A program made the translations under genes and the position numbers. Positions 25,261-30,357 of a stretch of 43,904 nucleotides of DNA are shown here, in pieces. The notes under the pieces were generated by a model. That model did no database searches and was not told where the DNA came from. It was given only the letters and a program-made list of their open reading frames with translations. Origin of the DNA: Crocinitomicaceae bacterium (GTDB lineage Bacteria > Bacteroidota > Bacteroidia > Flavobacteriales_D > Crocinitomicaceae); NCBI GenBank assembly GCA_023254905.1, contig JALRKF010000023.1, positions 1 to 43,904 on the forward strand, read 5' to 3'. The number at the start of each line of letters is the position of its first letter. Within the stretch, counting starts at the first letter, position 1.

Positions 25261-26118
25261 TTACTTTATATAGATTTTTTTACTTTTTGATCCGGACTCA
25301 AAATTAGCAACCAGCATGTAAATACCAGAATTAACTCCTTCGTAGGATACTTCAGTGTTTACATCATCGATCCCAACAGTAGAAAGAACTCTTCCGCTCA
25401 TGTCTACGATACTGATCTCTCCTCCAAATAGATCTGGAGTAACGTTTACAACTGCTTTGTCAAGGAATGTTTTGAAGTGTACTTTGCTATCTAGCGCGAC
25501 ATCTTCGATTCCTACAGTTTGACCAGCATTGATCGTAAGATCTGCGATAGTATTATAAGCATAATCTTTGATCGTGATTTGAGAACCATCAGGAAGAACG
25601 TCCATACGTATCCATCCATAGTGCGTACTTCCACTTACTTGAAACTTTACTCCCAGGTGAACGTCGTTACCAGAGAAACTTCCGAAGCTTCCCGAGTATC
25701 CAGGAAGTCCTTGTACGGCATAATTACCAGCGAGTAATCCACCACCACTACCCCAATCATTTCCGGCGTCAATAGGGCTTCCAGCAGACACAGGCGTTAC
25801 ATAAAAGGAACTTCCACTTGTTGAGGTAGATAATGATCCAGCCACCGAATTACCTGATCCAGCACCAACAGCCGCATACGAACCCGTAATCATAAAGCCG
25901 TAGTATGAAGTGGAGATGGTAGTAACAACGAAACCATAATCATTCACTAGATCTCCATCAAGATCCATATCATATTGACCTGTGGTATTGTCGATTACAA
26001 CGTCAGGATTGACATCTGTGTATTGAATTTGGCCATTAACAGCACCAGCCGCCAGGAAAGCACCAGCTGCAGTTGAATACTTTAATAAAATATCTTTCTT
26101 TTTCGTAGTATTTTTCAT
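25261..26118 (-). CDS. Secreted protein with T9SS type A sorting domain
   Basis: A 285-residue exported protein. The N-terminus has a basic stretch and the hydrophobic segment KYSTAAGAFLAAGAVNG, and the mature part begins at QIQYTDVNPD. The central region (about 35-190) is rich in Gly, Ser and Tyr, with 'DMDLDGDLVNDYGF', which looks like a calcium-binding acidic loop, and 'HYGWIRMDVLPDGSQITIKDYAYNT'. The last 80 residues form a T9SS sorting domain: 'GEISIVDMSGRVLSTVGI', 'GVNSGIYMLVANF' and a basic end (KSKKIYIK). Proteins with this layout recur in Bacteroidota, but no function is known. It is downstream of the phosphatase-sulfotransferase gene with a 50-bp gap and may be co-transcribed with it; a strong terminator closes the unit. 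Confidence 0.85.
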   Translation of the reverse strand: MKNTTKKKDILLKYSTAAGAFLAAGAVNGQIQYTDVNPDVVIDNTTGQYDMDLDGDLVNDYGFVVTTISTSYYGFMITGSYAAVGAGSGNSVAGSLSTSTSGSSFYVTPVSAGSPIDAGNDWGSGGGLLAGNYAVQGLPGYSGSFGSFSGNDVHLGVKFQVSGSTHYGWIRMDVLPDGSQITIKDYAYNTIADLTINAGQTVGIEDVALDSKVHFKTFLDKAVVNVTPDLFGGEISIVDMSGRVLSTVGIDDVNTEVSYEGVNSGIYMLVANFESGSKSKKIYIK

Positions 26119-26168: not shown

Positions 26169-28787
26169 TTAAACTCTATTTCTGTATAACGTTGGATCAA
26201 CAACGGCCGCCATTTTCTCAACGTTTAAGTCAATACCCAAGAAGGCGGCTATTCGCTCTGCCTCCTCCAACGGATTTTCAATAACATTTGAATACTGCAC
26301 CTTCAAAACCTGGACCTTTGGTTGAGAGTCTGACCAACCCTCTACTTTATTCAATTGATTTTTATAGGCCGTGAATAGAGACATTGGAAGTGCATCCTTT
26401 CGCGTGTCTTTACCTAACATTTTCTGCTGCGACGTTATTACTTCTCCGAGATCTCTTTCCATTAAAACTACCTTGTATCCGAATTTTTCTGGTAGAAAGT
26501 GAAGTAGCGGAGCTACAATTTTTACAGTCTGACCTTGAGCTTCATCAAGCCAAGCTTGGTCCAGGTGCAGTGATTTGACCTTTTCATACTCCATGTATCC
26601 TTTTGGATTGTTGACATCTGCCTTTCGATTACTATCTGTCAACATTGGGGCACCTCCCTCGGCTAGCATCTGCATCATCATTGATGTACCCGAACGAGGG
26701 AGACCGGAAACAACAAAGATACTACCAACAATATTCTCTTCGATGAATTTTTCATGATTAACAGCTTTTGATGGCTGATTCAGTTTGTCCTTGTAAATAT
26801 GGACCAACCACTTATGCGCTTTTCTCATCCCAGGGGATAGTTTTGCTGCCACTTCAAAGGCATTCGCTGCATTCTCAAAATCTTCCAATCTTGCAAGAGT
26901 CTCACCGAGGTGATAATGGGCGCGCACATGATTAAAATTAAGTTCTATTGTAATCAAGAACTCATCCATTGCCTCCTCTAGCATATTCCTTCGCAGAAAT
27001 GAAAACCCTAGACCGTAATGCGCTCCGGCATTAAGTTCATCAATTGCAAGAGCTTTAACATAATATTGTTCGGCATCGTCGAATCTACCTCTACTCAAAT
27101 TGGTCTTTGCGATATTCAAGCAGACATTTAAATTGGCGGGATTTTTATCAAGAACTTTTTCAAGAATTGGTATGGCTCTATCGATTTTATTTTGAGCGAG
27201 TAACAATAATCCCTCAATGTATTCCAGATACATCGGTTCCTCTAGCTCTTTATCCTTGAATGGGTCATTTGGATCCTTTTCTAACCTCTCTTTTTTTAGC
27301 GTTTCAAATTCTTTCTTTTCAGCAACTTTTAAATCTTTAATTAACGCTTCGCACTTACTGAATTGGCCTGTTTTCAGATAGGCGCCCGCCAATCGCTTTC
27401 CGTATCTGGGAATCAAGCTATTAACAAAAATTTCTTCGAGAATACTGATTCCTTTTTCAATACTATTGCCCTGCATCATACTTCTAGCGAGATAATATTT
27501 GCTCTCACGGACAGCCTTATCGACCTTTTCTTGTGCATCAACTCCTTCCATGGGTTCTATATATCCCAGCTCTACTAGCTGTTTCATAGCTTCTTGTGCT
27601 GCCCATGGGTCCTCCAATTTTTCTTGCTTGTGCATCCCTGAATTTCCGTTTACGATTTCCCAACTTTCGATGGTATTCGGTTCGATCGGTTCAGAAAATG
27701 CCGAAGTCAAAACTTTACCATCCATATCCTCTCCCACAGGTAAACCATAAAGCGTCAGGAGAGTTGGGGTAAGATCAAGAATACTCGCGCCACTAATAGT
27801 GCCACCTTTTCTAATTCCAGGACCATTCATTACAATAATTCCATAAGGACTGTGTTCAACAGCGGGTCCGGATGGTTCTTTAGGGATTGACTTTGGCCTT
27901 AAATGATCTGAGTGAAATCCATGATCTGAGATCAGAATAACGGTTGTTTCATCGTCGATGAGGTTTAGGGTTCTTTCTAACATCATGTCATGAAAACGAT
28001 ATCCAGCTTCTACTACACCTTTATATTTCTCGAAATCACTCTCAGAAATGAACTCTCTACGTGGAGGATGAAAGCGCATAGCGAGATGACAAAAGTGATC
28101 TATAGCATCATGATACACAGCCATGAAATCCCATTCAGTCTCTCTCTGTAAATATGTCGAGGCCGCATGTACTGAGGCTGCATGTGCAATTATTTTAGCT
28201 ATTCCTTGCGCCCTTTTTTCTTGCGTATGTCCTTCTCCTTCAAAGAGTTTTGGCATGAAAGGAATCAACATTTGTGATGTTAGCTCACTAGGATGTACTC
28301 GAAAATCTTTTAAAATTTCTTCATAGCTTTCTGGATGAATAGTACCATCAGGCATATCCCAGTTTTCATCGGAACTTTTATTTGCAACTTGAAAAAGATT
28401 AGAAACCATGACGCCATCGATCGGCTCAGCGGGATTACTTGGCCACCAGGAAACAACATTGCTTTTCATATTGTTTTGGTTGAGTATATTCCAAACTGCT
28501 TTTACTTTTCGACTTGTTACAGTGACGGGTCTTAATGCTTTCATGTCAGGCGTTGGTTCTATGAAGCCTTGGATCCCATGTTTTTCAGCACGCATTCCAG
28601 TCGCCATACTTGTCCAGAGCATTGGAGAAAGTGGGGGATCAAGTGTTTTAACTCTTCCGTAAACACCTCCCTCCATTAACTTCTGAAGGGTTGGCATTTT
28701 ACCTTCTTGTATCAAAGGCATGATCACTTTCCAGTCAGCGGCATCCCAACCGATTACTAATACTTTATTTGTCAGCTTCTTTCCCAT
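26169..28787 (-). CDS. Alkaline-phosphatase-superfamily / TPR / sulfotransferase fusion protein
   Basis: An 872-residue three-part protein. Residues 1-370 form an alkaline-phosphatase-superfamily domain of the phosphodiesterase/nucleotide-pyrophosphatase type: metal ligand Asp15 in VIGWDAADW, the nucleophile region SPMLWTS (54-60), Asp230 and His234, Asp288-His289 in ISDHGFH, and His312. Residues 430-680 contain TPR repeats. Residues 689-872 form a PAPS-type sulfotransferase domain with the 5'-phosphosulfate-binding loop GLPRSGTS (695-702). There is no signal peptide, so it is predicted to be cytoplasmic, which fits PAPS use. The start is set at ATG 28787; the longer upstream frame adds a lysine/arginine-only leader overlapping the small ORF. 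Substrates for both catalytic domains are unknown. A GT39-like glycosyltransferase gene is upstream, hinting at surface-glycan chemistry (inference). Confidence 0.85.
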   Translation of the reverse strand: MGKKLTNKVLVIGWDAADWKVIMPLIQEGKMPTLQKLMEGGVYGRVKTLDPPLSPMLWTSMATGMRAEKHGIQGFIEPTPDMKALRPVTVTSRKVKAVWNILNQNNMKSNVVSWWPSNPAEPIDGVMVSNLFQVANKSSDENWDMPDGTIHPESYEEILKDFRVHPSELTSQMLIPFMPKLFEGEGHTQEKRAQGIAKIIAHAASVHAASTYLQRETEWDFMAVYHDAIDHFCHLAMRFHPPRREFISESDFEKYKGVVEAGYRFHDMMLERTLNLIDDETTVILISDHGFHSDHLRPKSIPKEPSGPAVEHSPYGIIVMNGPGIRKGGTISGASILDLTPTLLTLYGLPVGEDMDGKVLTSAFSEPIEPNTIESWEIVNGNSGMHKQEKLEDPWAAQEAMKQLVELGYIEPMEGVDAQEKVDKAVRESKYYLARSMMQGNSIEKGISILEEIFVNSLIPRYGKRLAGAYLKTGQFSKCEALIKDLKVAEKKEFETLKKERLEKDPNDPFKDKELEEPMYLEYIEGLLLLAQNKIDRAIPILEKVLDKNPANLNVCLNIAKTNLSRGRFDDAEQYYVKALAIDELNAGAHYGLGFSFLRRNMLEEAMDEFLITIELNFNHVRAHYHLGETLARLEDFENAANAFEVAAKLSPGMRKAHKWLVHIYKDKLNQPSKAVNHEKFIEENIVGSIFVVSGLPRSGTSMMMQMLAEGGAPMLTDSNRKADVNNPKGYMEYEKVKSLHLDQAWLDEAQGQTVKIVAPLLHFLPEKFGYKVVLMERDLGEVITSQQKMLGKDTRKDALPMSLFTAYKNQLNKVEGWSDSQPKVQVLKVQYSNVIENPLEEAERIAAFLGIDLNVEKMAAVVDPTLYRNRV

Positions 28788-28920
28788 CTTCCTCTTTATT
28801 CTTTTTCTCCTTTTTCGCTTTCTCTTTTGCTTCACGCCACAGTTTGATACCAATATCTCCCAATGCTAAAACACCCAAAGATCCATCTGGTGGCATTTGT
28901 ATTATTTTGTGCTTTTTCAT
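28765..28920 (-). CDS. Small 51-residue protein overlapping the phosphatase-sulfotransferase gene
   Basis: A short ORF with an ATG at 28920 and a stop at 28765, overlapping the start of the fusion gene by 23 bp in another frame. The product begins MKKHKIIQMPPDGSLGVLAL, continues with a glycine-rich hydrophobic segment (GDIGIKLW), and ends in a highly charged lysine/glutamate helix. The layout, a compact hydrophobic motif plus a charged amphipathic tail, looks designed rather than random. The 23-bp overlap suggests translational coupling, so it may be a partner subunit of the fusion enzyme. No known family was recognised. It is below usual annotation cut-offs and could be missed. Confidence 0.6.
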   Translation of the reverse strand: MKKHKIIQMPPDGSLGVLALGDIGIKLWREAKEKAKKEKKNKEEDGKEADK

Positions 28921-28962: not shown

Positions 28963-30357
28963 TTACTGCGCCGCATAGATTTTAAAAGCCTTCTCTTCGC
29001 AGAGAATAGGAAAATTCAATTTGGTTGAAGTACCAAAGCCTTCATGAAGGATGATAATTTTTGATAATCCGAGCGAAATCAAAGAATCAGTATACTGCTG
29101 ATTTTCAATATTACCGTTATAACCAATCCAACCTTTACGGTGAGCGAAGTACATAGGTGTAGGAACTTCCTCACTATTGATAAATACAAGATCATTCTTT
29201 TCTCCAAGCTCGTTCAATATGGATTCAAGATCCTGAGTTGATATTAAGCGTGACGGAATCTTGAAGTCTTGAATGCTATTTCCTACACACTCAACAGCTA
29301 CAATTAGTATGAATGAAACACGTAAGTATTGCTGTTTGATCTCTGATAGAAAATACCCTGCTAATAGAGCCATAACTGGCACAAATGGAATGACGTAATA
29401 GCTGTGATGAGCAAAGGTAAAGCCTGCTTTAAAAATGATGATTAGGAAGGTGAAAAATGTAAGCAATAGAACGAACAGTGTCTTCTTGTCAGATTGTCTT
29501 ATCGCAGTAAAAATTCCGAGAATGAACAATCCAAATCCAACGAATTTTAACGCTGAATCATAGAATCGGGAAAGAGTCAAGGGTAGATGTTCAATTATTT
29601 CAGAAATCCCTTGTGACATGCTTTTTCCCATGAAAAAGTGCCAGAAATCATAAGTCTTTACGAGATGGGGAACCCAAACAAAATACCACCACATGGCTGG
29701 AAGCAGTGCTAGTATCATTGCTAATCCAAGAAAGAGACTCTTTTTAGTAGGAGGTCGTTCAACAATTACAATGAGTAATAATGTTGGAAGCAGATATCCA
29801 CTTGGAAGTTTCGCTAGTACCCCAATTGTTACTAGGGTTGAAGCAATTACGAGTTGAATCAGGCTTCCTTTTTCTTTGAGATAATTGGATGCGAAGTAGA
29901 TACCTCCTAAAAGAAATGACATAGAAAATGTATCTGGCATGATCTTTCTGGAGAAGACAAACCAAGCTGAGAAGGTAAGAATGAGTGCGCTCCAAAAGGC
30001 TCTTTCATGATTCCAATAGCGCCTAACAAGCAGAAAAAAGAAGTAAATTCCGAAGGAAGAAAAGACAAGGTTGATCAGTCTTCCAGACCAATGCTGATAT
30101 CCGAAAAGTTGATTAGTACCGTAAATGAGGTAATTGAATATTGGGAATTCCATTCCAGTGATTCCTGTTTTCTCTCCTGCGAAGTCTATCCTTGGATAGA
30201 AAATATTCGCATCTACTTCTGAGAAGTTACGTGCAACCATTGTTACTGTGGTTTGACGCCAATTATGTCCGGCCTCAAGTGGTGGATTTGTGATTCCAAC
30301 TAGTCTGATAACGAACGCGAACACGATCCAAAAACGTATATCTTTTAACAGGTGCAC
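28963..30357 (-). CDS. GT39-like (PMT/ArnT-type) membrane glycosyltransferase
   Basis: A 464-residue polytopic inner-membrane protein of the GT-C fold that uses polyprenyl-phosphate-linked sugars. The N-terminus has the first helix followed by the periplasmic loop 'PPLEAGHNWRQTTVTMVARNF', with the acidic residue (Glu28) and the HxWRQ pattern typical of bacterial dolichyl-phosphate-mannose-type transferases in Bacteroidota. About ten further helices follow, with a soluble C-terminal domain after about residue 365. The sugar and acceptor cannot be told from sequence; protein O-glycosylation or lipid/glycan decoration are possible. The start is GTG at 30357, only 13 nt behind the T-tract of the sucB terminator, and no ATG is available. 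It lies 42 bp upstream of the small ORF, so the three genes probably form one unit. Confidence 0.82.
   Translation of the reverse strand: MHLLKDIRFWIVFAFVIRLVGITNPPLEAGHNWRQTTVTMVARNFSEVDANIFYPRIDFAGEKTGITGMEFPIFNYLIYGTNQLFGYQHWSGRLINLVFSSFGIYFFFLLVRRYWNHERAFWSALILTFSAWFVFSRKIMPDTFSMSFLLGGIYFASNYLKEKGSLIQLVIASTLVTIGVLAKLPSGYLLPTLLLIVIVERPPTKKSLFLGLAMILALLPAMWWYFVWVPHLVKTYDFWHFFMGKSMSQGISEIIEHLPLTLSRFYDSALKFVGFGLFILGIFTAIRQSDKKTLFVLLLTFFTFLIIIFKAGFTFAHHSYYVIPFVPVMALLAGYFLSEIKQQYLRVSFILIVAVECVGNSIQDFKIPSRLISTQDLESILNELGEKNDLVFINSEEVPTPMYFAHRKGWIGYNGNIENQQYTDSLISLGLSKIIILHEGFGTSTKLNFPILCEEKAFKIYAAQ

Follow-up and report, generated by a model that had tools for sequence, protein, structure and literature searches.

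To our knowledge, protein sulfation is hardly documented in bacteria, RaxX being the known case. In the RaxX-RaxST-RaxAB system of Xanthomonas, a sulfotransferase (ST) that uses 3'-phosphoadenosine 5'-phosphosulfate (PAPS) is encoded alongside its secreted client (PMC6637879). In the accessory Sec system of Streptococcus (GspB, glycosyltransferases and Asp1-3), Asp2 is reported to modify GspB solely during transport, and glycine mutations in the signal-peptide core to re-route GspB (PMC5578698). Here we describe a gene in a 43,904-nucleotide stretch of DNA from a Crocinitomicaceae bacterium (contig JALRKF010000023.1, positions 1 to 43,904; hereafter the window) that fuses an alkaline phosphatase-superfamily (AP) domain, tetratricopeptide repeats (TPRs) and a PAPS sulfotransferase in one frame (AP-TPR-ST), together with the genes beside it for a microprotein and for a protein secreted by the type IX secretion system (T9SS), which we call the cargo. 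A search of the open-access literature for this architecture or module found no description, and this module of Bacteroidia is apparently undescribed; the domain families are each known, and their combination, the microprotein and a tag in the cargo signal peptide appear to be new.

Compared by description, the locus shares with the RaxX system a bacterial PAPS ST and a secreted client. In the RaxX system, however, the client is a 60-residue precursor peptide with predicted type I export and the ST stands alone, whereas the cargos here show no universal acceptor tyrosine, neither Tyr14 nor Tyr33 of the N-terminal region being conserved in all those linked to the enzyme. The accessory Sec system, like the one proposed here, modifies a dedicated surface protein in the cytosol, but by description it is a Gram-positive system of glycosylation and O-acetylation without a sulfotransferase, an AP domain or T9SS. 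O-GlcNAc transferase and SPINDLY, which modify proteins, likewise carry a TPR superhelix on the modifying domain (a Foldseek match to the TPR part), although that domain is a glycosyltransferase in place of an ST and there is no AP domain. With the AP superfamily (phosphonate monoester hydrolases, NPP/ENPP, sulfatases, iPGM) the N-terminal domain has a common fold and metal-ligand set, but similarity to solved members is marginal (best E 0.084) and the S-P-M-L context of Ser54 lacks the sulfatase signature. Finally, the cargo has the signal peptide and TIGR04183 C-terminal domain of T9SS type-A cargos, yet differs from typical ones in an Ala/Gly-rich tagged signal peptide seen only in enzyme-holding genomes. 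By analogy, modification of a client before export would follow the same logic as Asp2/GspB and RaxST/RaxX, and there is a real chance that this locus, most readily placed among export-coupled, client-dedicated modification systems, is a new kind of system.

An AP-TPR-ST fusion and its linked cargo

The principal features of the window, in amino acids (aa) where proteins are concerned, are as follows.

26169..28787, minus strand: AP-TPR-ST fusion, 872 aa, ATG at 28787, stop at 26171-26169, no internal stop
27657..28787, minus strand: AP-superfamily domain, residues 1-377, with D15, S54, D230, H234, D288, H289 and H312 (Pfam and alignment)
26733..27608, minus strand: helical TPR solenoid, residues ~394-685 (Pfam and AlphaFold2)
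26172..26732, minus strand: ST domain, residues 686-872 (Pfam and AlphaFold2)
26682..26705, minus strand: intact phosphosulfate-binding (PAPS) loop GLPRSGTS, residues 695-702 (sequence)
25261..26118, minus strand: secreted cargo, 285 aa, T9SS type-A, the next gene, 50 bp downstream of the fusion
26032..26118, minus strand: tagged signal peptide of the cargo (..KKKDILLKYSTAAGAFLAAGAVNG, followed by Q), with a cleavage site assigned by inspection
25264..25437, minus strand: cargo T9SS C-terminal domain, residues 228-285 (TIGR04183 and Foldseek)
28765..28920, minus strand: microprotein of 51 aa with the motif PPDGSLGVLALGDIGIKLWR, sharing 23 bp at its 3' end with the start of the fusion

A functional pairing of the enzyme and the cargo is well supported. 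The fusion, the gene linkage, a tag that tracks the enzyme, the retention of a live ST and the presence of PAPS genes can all be read from the sequences compared. Cargo, microprotein and tag were absent from an earlier, sequence-only reading of this DNA, and they alter the likely function of the enzyme.

At the order level, where a cargo match of at least 100 bits was sought within 6 kb of each AP match (>160 bits), one was found for 64 of 68. Among the remaining four, G407:C101 looks like one end of a gene that gave two matches (handles beginning with G denote genomes and with L loci), the AP gene of G686 looks split across two contigs with the cargo adjoining the other piece (L226), and the contig of G692 stops 120 bp past the AP gene; G490 is a genuine exception. 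At the class level, 24 of 32 loci have a cargo-family match no more than 6 kb away, and the family scored >130 bits in 19 of the 20 carrier genomes first searched, with partial matches in G303 and G309 and with G064 as the exception. The C-terminal sorting domain of the window's cargo (TIGR04183, 29.4 bits, cut-off 23; PF18962 reaches 24.5 bits, under its cut-off of 27) assigns it to the T9SS type-A proteins. The AlphaFold2 model (predicted local distance difference test, pLDDT, 84.7 overall) has a mostly beta body and the C-terminal domain, with the signal peptide at low confidence; in Foldseek, the C-terminal domain aligns with solved T9SS counterparts, and the whole model has no match reaching E 0.001.

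The fusion itself stands as the sequence-only reading had it, on a minus strand that the reading did not give, as do Asp15, Asp230, His234, Asp288, His289, His312 and the GLPRSGTS loop. Ser54, which it omitted, is presumably the expected AP nucleophile, an assignment by analogy with NPP enzymes. None of the catalytic residues is lost in the window protein, and the seven AP positions are identical in 98 of 98 aligned AP domains. The Phosphodiest profile (PF01663) matches residues 9-292 (E 4e-25, 89.6 bits, cut-off 23) and, with the predicted metal ligands and nucleophile, points to membership in PF01663 and the AP superfamily; TPR repeats are found at residues ~525-660 (Pfam). The C-terminal part matches Sulfotransfer_3 (PF13469; E 2.8e-12, 47.8 bits, cut-off 27) and, at residues 692-864, Sulfotransfer_1 (PF00685; E 5.1e-9, 36.3 bits, cut-off 22), and these profiles and the GLPRSGTS loop mark it as a putative PAPS sulfotransferase. 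A reading of the AP domain as a class-I (type I, formylglycine) sulfatase was rejected: PF00884 scores 19.9 bits, below its cut-off of 25, and S54-P-M-L-W lacks (C/S)-x-P-x-R, the nucleophile signature of sulfatases.

The AlphaFold2 prediction (64-sequence alignment, mean pLDDT 86.6) models an alpha/beta AP domain, a helical solenoid and an alpha/beta ST. In Foldseek, the N-terminal domain resembles phosphonate monoester hydrolase, NPP/ENPP (including Xac NPP and ENPP1) and sulfatases, and the solenoid resembles the TPRs of O-GlcNAc transferase, SPINDLY and MamA. Sequence similarity to solved structures is marginal (best E 0.084 for the AP segment and 0.051 for the ST segment).

A local assembly error, in which the two domains would always be separate genes in relatives, had also been considered; it is ruled out because full-length relatives occur in many Bacteroidia genomes, though in many order-level relatives the fused loop is lost and a separate ST gene is present in the locus.

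A signal-peptide tag that tracks the enzyme

The linked cargos have in common an Ala/Gly-rich signal peptide with a core of the K-L-x-x-Y-[ST]-A-x-A type, generalised as [K/R]-L-x-x-[Y/F]-[S/T]-A-x-A. A profile of this tag was trained on 24 cargos from order-level and first-scan loci and applied at a threshold of at least 10 bits. It recognised 35 of 40 cargos in class-level loci, none of which was in the training set, and 0 of 293 other open reading frames (ORFs) there; at the order level it recognised 74 of 77 linked cargos (training rows included) and 0 of 1067 other ORFs. None of 41 cargo-body homologues from genomes without a detected enzyme reached the threshold, the top one scoring 9.5; these 41 proteins came from 30 matches of at least 100 bits, the first 20 mostly not matching in the signal region, and ten weaker-match regions. 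The cargo model includes the signal region, so detection leans to tagged proteins, and untagged ones were recovered nonetheless.

The same contrast was seen in 36 chosen whole genomes, 18 with the enzyme and 18 without: tagged proteins occurred in 17 of the carriers and in none of the non-carriers. All 27 tag-profile matches at E <= 0.05 were cargo genes, with one more match, at E 0.052, in a 26-aa frame. Residue by residue, Tyr14 and Ala18 are present in 0.93 and 0.92, respectively, of 61 linked cargos versus 0 of 20 unlinked for both. Linked signal peptides (n=118) contain more Ala and Gly than unlinked ones (n=20; 0.50 versus 0.08) and have a weaker hydrophobic core (median best 12-mer on the Kyte-Doolittle scale 1.60 versus 2.27).

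Tagged cargos also occur away from the AP gene, which argues that the tag is more than a neighbourhood effect: 10 of 18 carrier cargo homologues distant from that gene score at least 10 bits (G490, G332, G750, G827, G905, G944), and four of these genomes, G490, G750, G827 and G944, have tagged cargos at a distance from the enzyme or on a different contig. Among the genomes examined, then, the tag appears limited to those that bear the enzyme, though it is not on every homologue there.

A live sulfotransferase is kept, fused or separate

The state of the ST was compared across 66 AP copies in 60 loci (the order-level loci plus L006, L049 and L051). The fused PAPS loop is present, with no second ST in the locus, in 12 of the 66 copies; in the other 54 it is lost, and a separate ST of >150 bits is encoded in the locus for 50 of these, so that the ST is conserved with the module though its position varies. 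Of the four others, L144, L156 and L191 lie close to contig ends, with starts 190 to 526 bp away, and the ST of L166 (genome G490) is located on another contig. The PAPS loop was seen in 44 of 45 separate STs, the remaining one (L180) being interrupted by a contig end. In the sequence around two truncated loop-bearing copies, L182 and L203, a separate ST was likewise not seen. Among the 36 genomes, the ST subfamily scored >200 bits in 18 of 18 carriers versus 0 of 18 non-carriers.

At the class level the fused loop is found in all 28 loci from L272 to L299, two with the variants GLPRAGTS and GMPRSGTS. The AP proteins of L300-L302 lack an ST part; there, an ST scoring 174-178 bits is encoded less than 4 kb away. 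In L302:2789-6711 (G1037) and L301 (G990), an APS kinase, the separate ST and the ST-less AP protein form a short cluster, to which G1037 adds a CysD-like gene; these clusters are possibly a split form of the module.

On the AP tree, which left out the incomplete L050, L145, L182, L183 and L203 as well as L040 and L044 (which repeat other loci or contigs), the loop state requires two changes. A quick tree suggests two origins for the separate ST, and an approximately unbiased test does not reject one clade (p 0.29). Copies whose fused ST has degenerated keep the AP catalytic site unchanged, and with a live ST encoded separately they offer a clear example from nature of an enzyme domain becoming a pseudoenzyme. 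A gene of a different family, Sulfotransfer_2, lies near the AP-TPR-ST gene at L281:5281-5901.

PAPS supply and the microprotein

A cytosolic setting with PAPS at hand, as had been proposed from the letters, fits the wider genome. The fusion has no signal peptide by inspection, cysD-cysN-cysC-cysQ form a single run on a different contig of the window's genome, and the APS kinase gene lies near the AP gene in five genomes: in G363, G453 and G827 as an immediate neighbour, and in G990 and G1037 no more than 1 kb away. In G1037 it is followed by a PF01507 gene, which we take to be CysD-like. APS kinase was detected in 18 of 18 carriers (matches in G365 are broken by stops) versus 9 of 18 non-carriers. 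CysQ, the usual phosphatase for 3'-phosphoadenosine 5'-phosphate (PAP), directly follows the APS kinase gene in the window's genome (TIGR01331, 278.6 bits, cut-off 228.8); PF00459, which also covers non-CysQ members, was found in all 36 genomes tested.

In 85 of 103 copies, an ORF of about 50-95 aa with the motif P-x-x-G-S-L-G-L-L-A-L-G-x-x-G-x-x-x-W-R lies directly upstream of the AP gene or is fused to it. The two loop-bearing copies without the microprotein are both interrupted by contig ends. The microprotein is visibly fused in frame to the AP N-terminus in L296, L297 and L299, which argues that the two work together. The window's microprotein has no match in Pfam at E <= 0.05 or in NCBIfam at E <= 0.1.

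At 28963-30357 (minus strand), 42 bp upstream of the microprotein gene and possibly in the same operon, the window encodes a PMT_2-type glycosyltransferase; BLAST against the other loci compared found no relative of this protein (E <= 1e-6).

Proposed mechanism and alternatives

Taken together, the cytosolic enzyme, the marking of clients in their signal peptides, the PAPS genes and the retention of an ST argue for modification of the client before export. We put at about even the chance that AP-TPR-ST and the microprotein form a client-dedicated cytosolic module that acts on the tagged T9SS cargo before export, likely by sulfation. Precursors of one T9SS-secreted family would be marked by the weakly hydrophobic, Ala/Gly-rich tagged signal peptide; in the cytosol, AP-TPR-ST with its microprotein partner would bind the tagged precursor through the TPR solenoid; the ST would transfer sulfate from PAPS to the precursor, ahead of Sec and T9SS export; and the AP domain may add a second reaction, metal-dependent and of the phosphoester or phosphotransfer type, acting on that client or on its adduct. 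Of these elements, we infer the binding, the role of the TPRs, the cargo as sulfate acceptor, the residue or glycan modified, the role of the microprotein and the AP reaction. Direct sulfation of the cargo would be the simplest version of this mechanism, and the linked cargo family suits the idea, already raised by the sequence-only reading, that the TPRs hold a protein partner. More tentatively, a new class of signal peptide may mark precursors for cytosolic sulfation by an AP-TPR-ST/microprotein complex, with export awaiting modification, in a widespread sulfation-secretion pathway.

Several observations weigh against modification of the cargo. At the class level, 8 of 32 loci have no cargo within 6 kb, and the cargo-like neighbour in G064 has a different signal peptide, unmatched by the cargo model. 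Two untagged cargo homologues sit inside loci (L152, L155), and of the 18 unlinked homologues examined in carrier genomes, 8 stay below 10 bits on the tag profile. When the tag is written as a loose regular expression, it hits 109 of 118 linked cargos but also 2 of the 20 homologues that are unlinked and, among other signal-peptide-like ORFs, 10 of 101; because this expression is less specific, the evidence for the tag rests on the profile. Comparison of Tyr14 and Tyr33 gave no universal acceptor residue among linked cargos. Tyr14 is replaced by Phe in L156 and L159-L161, which weakens it as an acceptor. Tyr33 (in Q-x-YTDxNPD), an idea taken from the resemblance to RaxX, was rejected as a general sulfation site: it is missing from a linked clade (L164, L165, L171-L173, L175, L177-L181) and present in 0.45 of 20 unlinked homologues. 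Close relatives also make up many of the rows, which keeps the counts from being independent events, and the incompleteness of many genomes makes absences uncertain.

The lack of a universal acceptor residue would also be expected if the enzyme sulfates (and phospho-processes) an acceptor of another sort, a glycan, lipid or other small molecule, and the tagged protein is joined to it or binds it afterwards, the cargo then being a partner rather than a direct substrate. T9SS cargos are reported to be attached to surface glycans, and the PMT_2 glycosyltransferase gene lies close to the window's microprotein gene, but its product has no relative in the other loci compared, and this alternative leaves unexplained why a signal peptide, expected to be removed at export, tracks the enzyme; we regard it as unlikely, though the most serious of the alternatives. 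The position of the tag in the signal peptide, the weak hydrophobic core (median 1.60 versus 2.27) and the persistence of the degenerate fused ST as a recognisable domain in many relatives would fit a protein that serves mainly as a targeting factor or chaperone for tagged precursors, like the Asp proteins of accessory Sec, with catalysis secondary. The AP catalytic residues are identical in 98 of 98 domains, however, and a live ST is kept with the module, which argues that catalysis matters, and a mainly targeting role is accordingly improbable in our estimation.

The sequence-only reading had proposed that the AP domain is a built-in phosphatase or phosphodiesterase that clears PAP. The fold can act on nucleotides (solved matches include Xac NPP and ENPP1), and the domain is physically fused to a PAP-producing enzyme; CysQ, however, is encoded right behind cysDNC in the same genome, which makes clearing by the AP domain the less likely option, PF00459 is present in all 36 genomes, the AP site is invariant where the fused ST is degenerate and the ST is a separate protein, and the cargo and its tag are left unexplained. 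The proposal is thus weakened, not refuted, and we consider it quite improbable. Least probable of all, to the point of being very doubtful, is co-regulation alone, in which cargo and enzyme would be in a common operon without functional contact: the genes are compact neighbours, but tagged cargos also persist in carriers at sites remote from the enzyme, the enzyme-free genomes examined yielded no tagged homologue, and G490 retains enzyme, ST and tagged cargo on three separate contigs.

Modification of the tagged cargo before export therefore remains our preferred reading. The module offers a testable client, a testable signal-peptide tag and a new microprotein across many families of Bacteroidia, and it would supply an enzyme-client pair for asking how cytosolic modification couples to Sec and T9SS export.

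Distribution, cargo variants and neighbouring genes

A scan of a public genome collection returned 18 relatives of the enzyme (L035-L052), all Bacteroidota by record title, with 42 to 70 % identity in the best segment and mostly near full length, and one further match, L053, that is TPR-only. At the order level, 55 of 399 genomes contain the 68 AP matches, two of which, both in G407, look like the two ends of a single gene; at the class level, 36 of 395 genomes match the enzyme at E <= 1e-20. Up to four first-look candidates per genome were scored in these AP searches and up to seven in one order-level linkage search, making the copy counts lower bounds. G732 has two weak matches (84 and 83 bits; identity 28 and 25 %), which are probably AP proteins of the ordinary sort. 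In a phylum sample of 296 genomes, with three candidates scored per genome and TPR matches competing with AP for those places, full-length matches were found just in G000 and G064. Plasmid records gave no match at E <= 1e-20. Carriers of the module are spread across many families of Bacteroidia.

Some cargos are longer or depart from the common form. Those at L158:3941-5503, L199:4007-5971 and L292:7843-9822 (521-660 aa) combine the tagged N-terminal module with other parts, which in L158 include SprB repeats. At L224:11202-13525, the class-level AP copy of G064 follows three genes on the same strand: one for a T9SS protein of 400 aa that bears a DxDxDxxxD motif and a different signal peptide, one for a small Spermine_synth-like protein and one for a protein with a phage tail-collar domain. 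L037:10432-13440 encodes a large T9SS protein in which Pfam, run on L037 only, finds a CotH kinase domain; the cluster of this protein occurs in 10 order-level loci. A DUF983-like gene (e.g. L174:5547-6570; 22.4 bits, cut-off 22.6) recurs in 30 order-level loci, and 24 loci have a regulator of the Crp/Fnr type (Pfam, run on L046 only); both probably reflect shared gene order.

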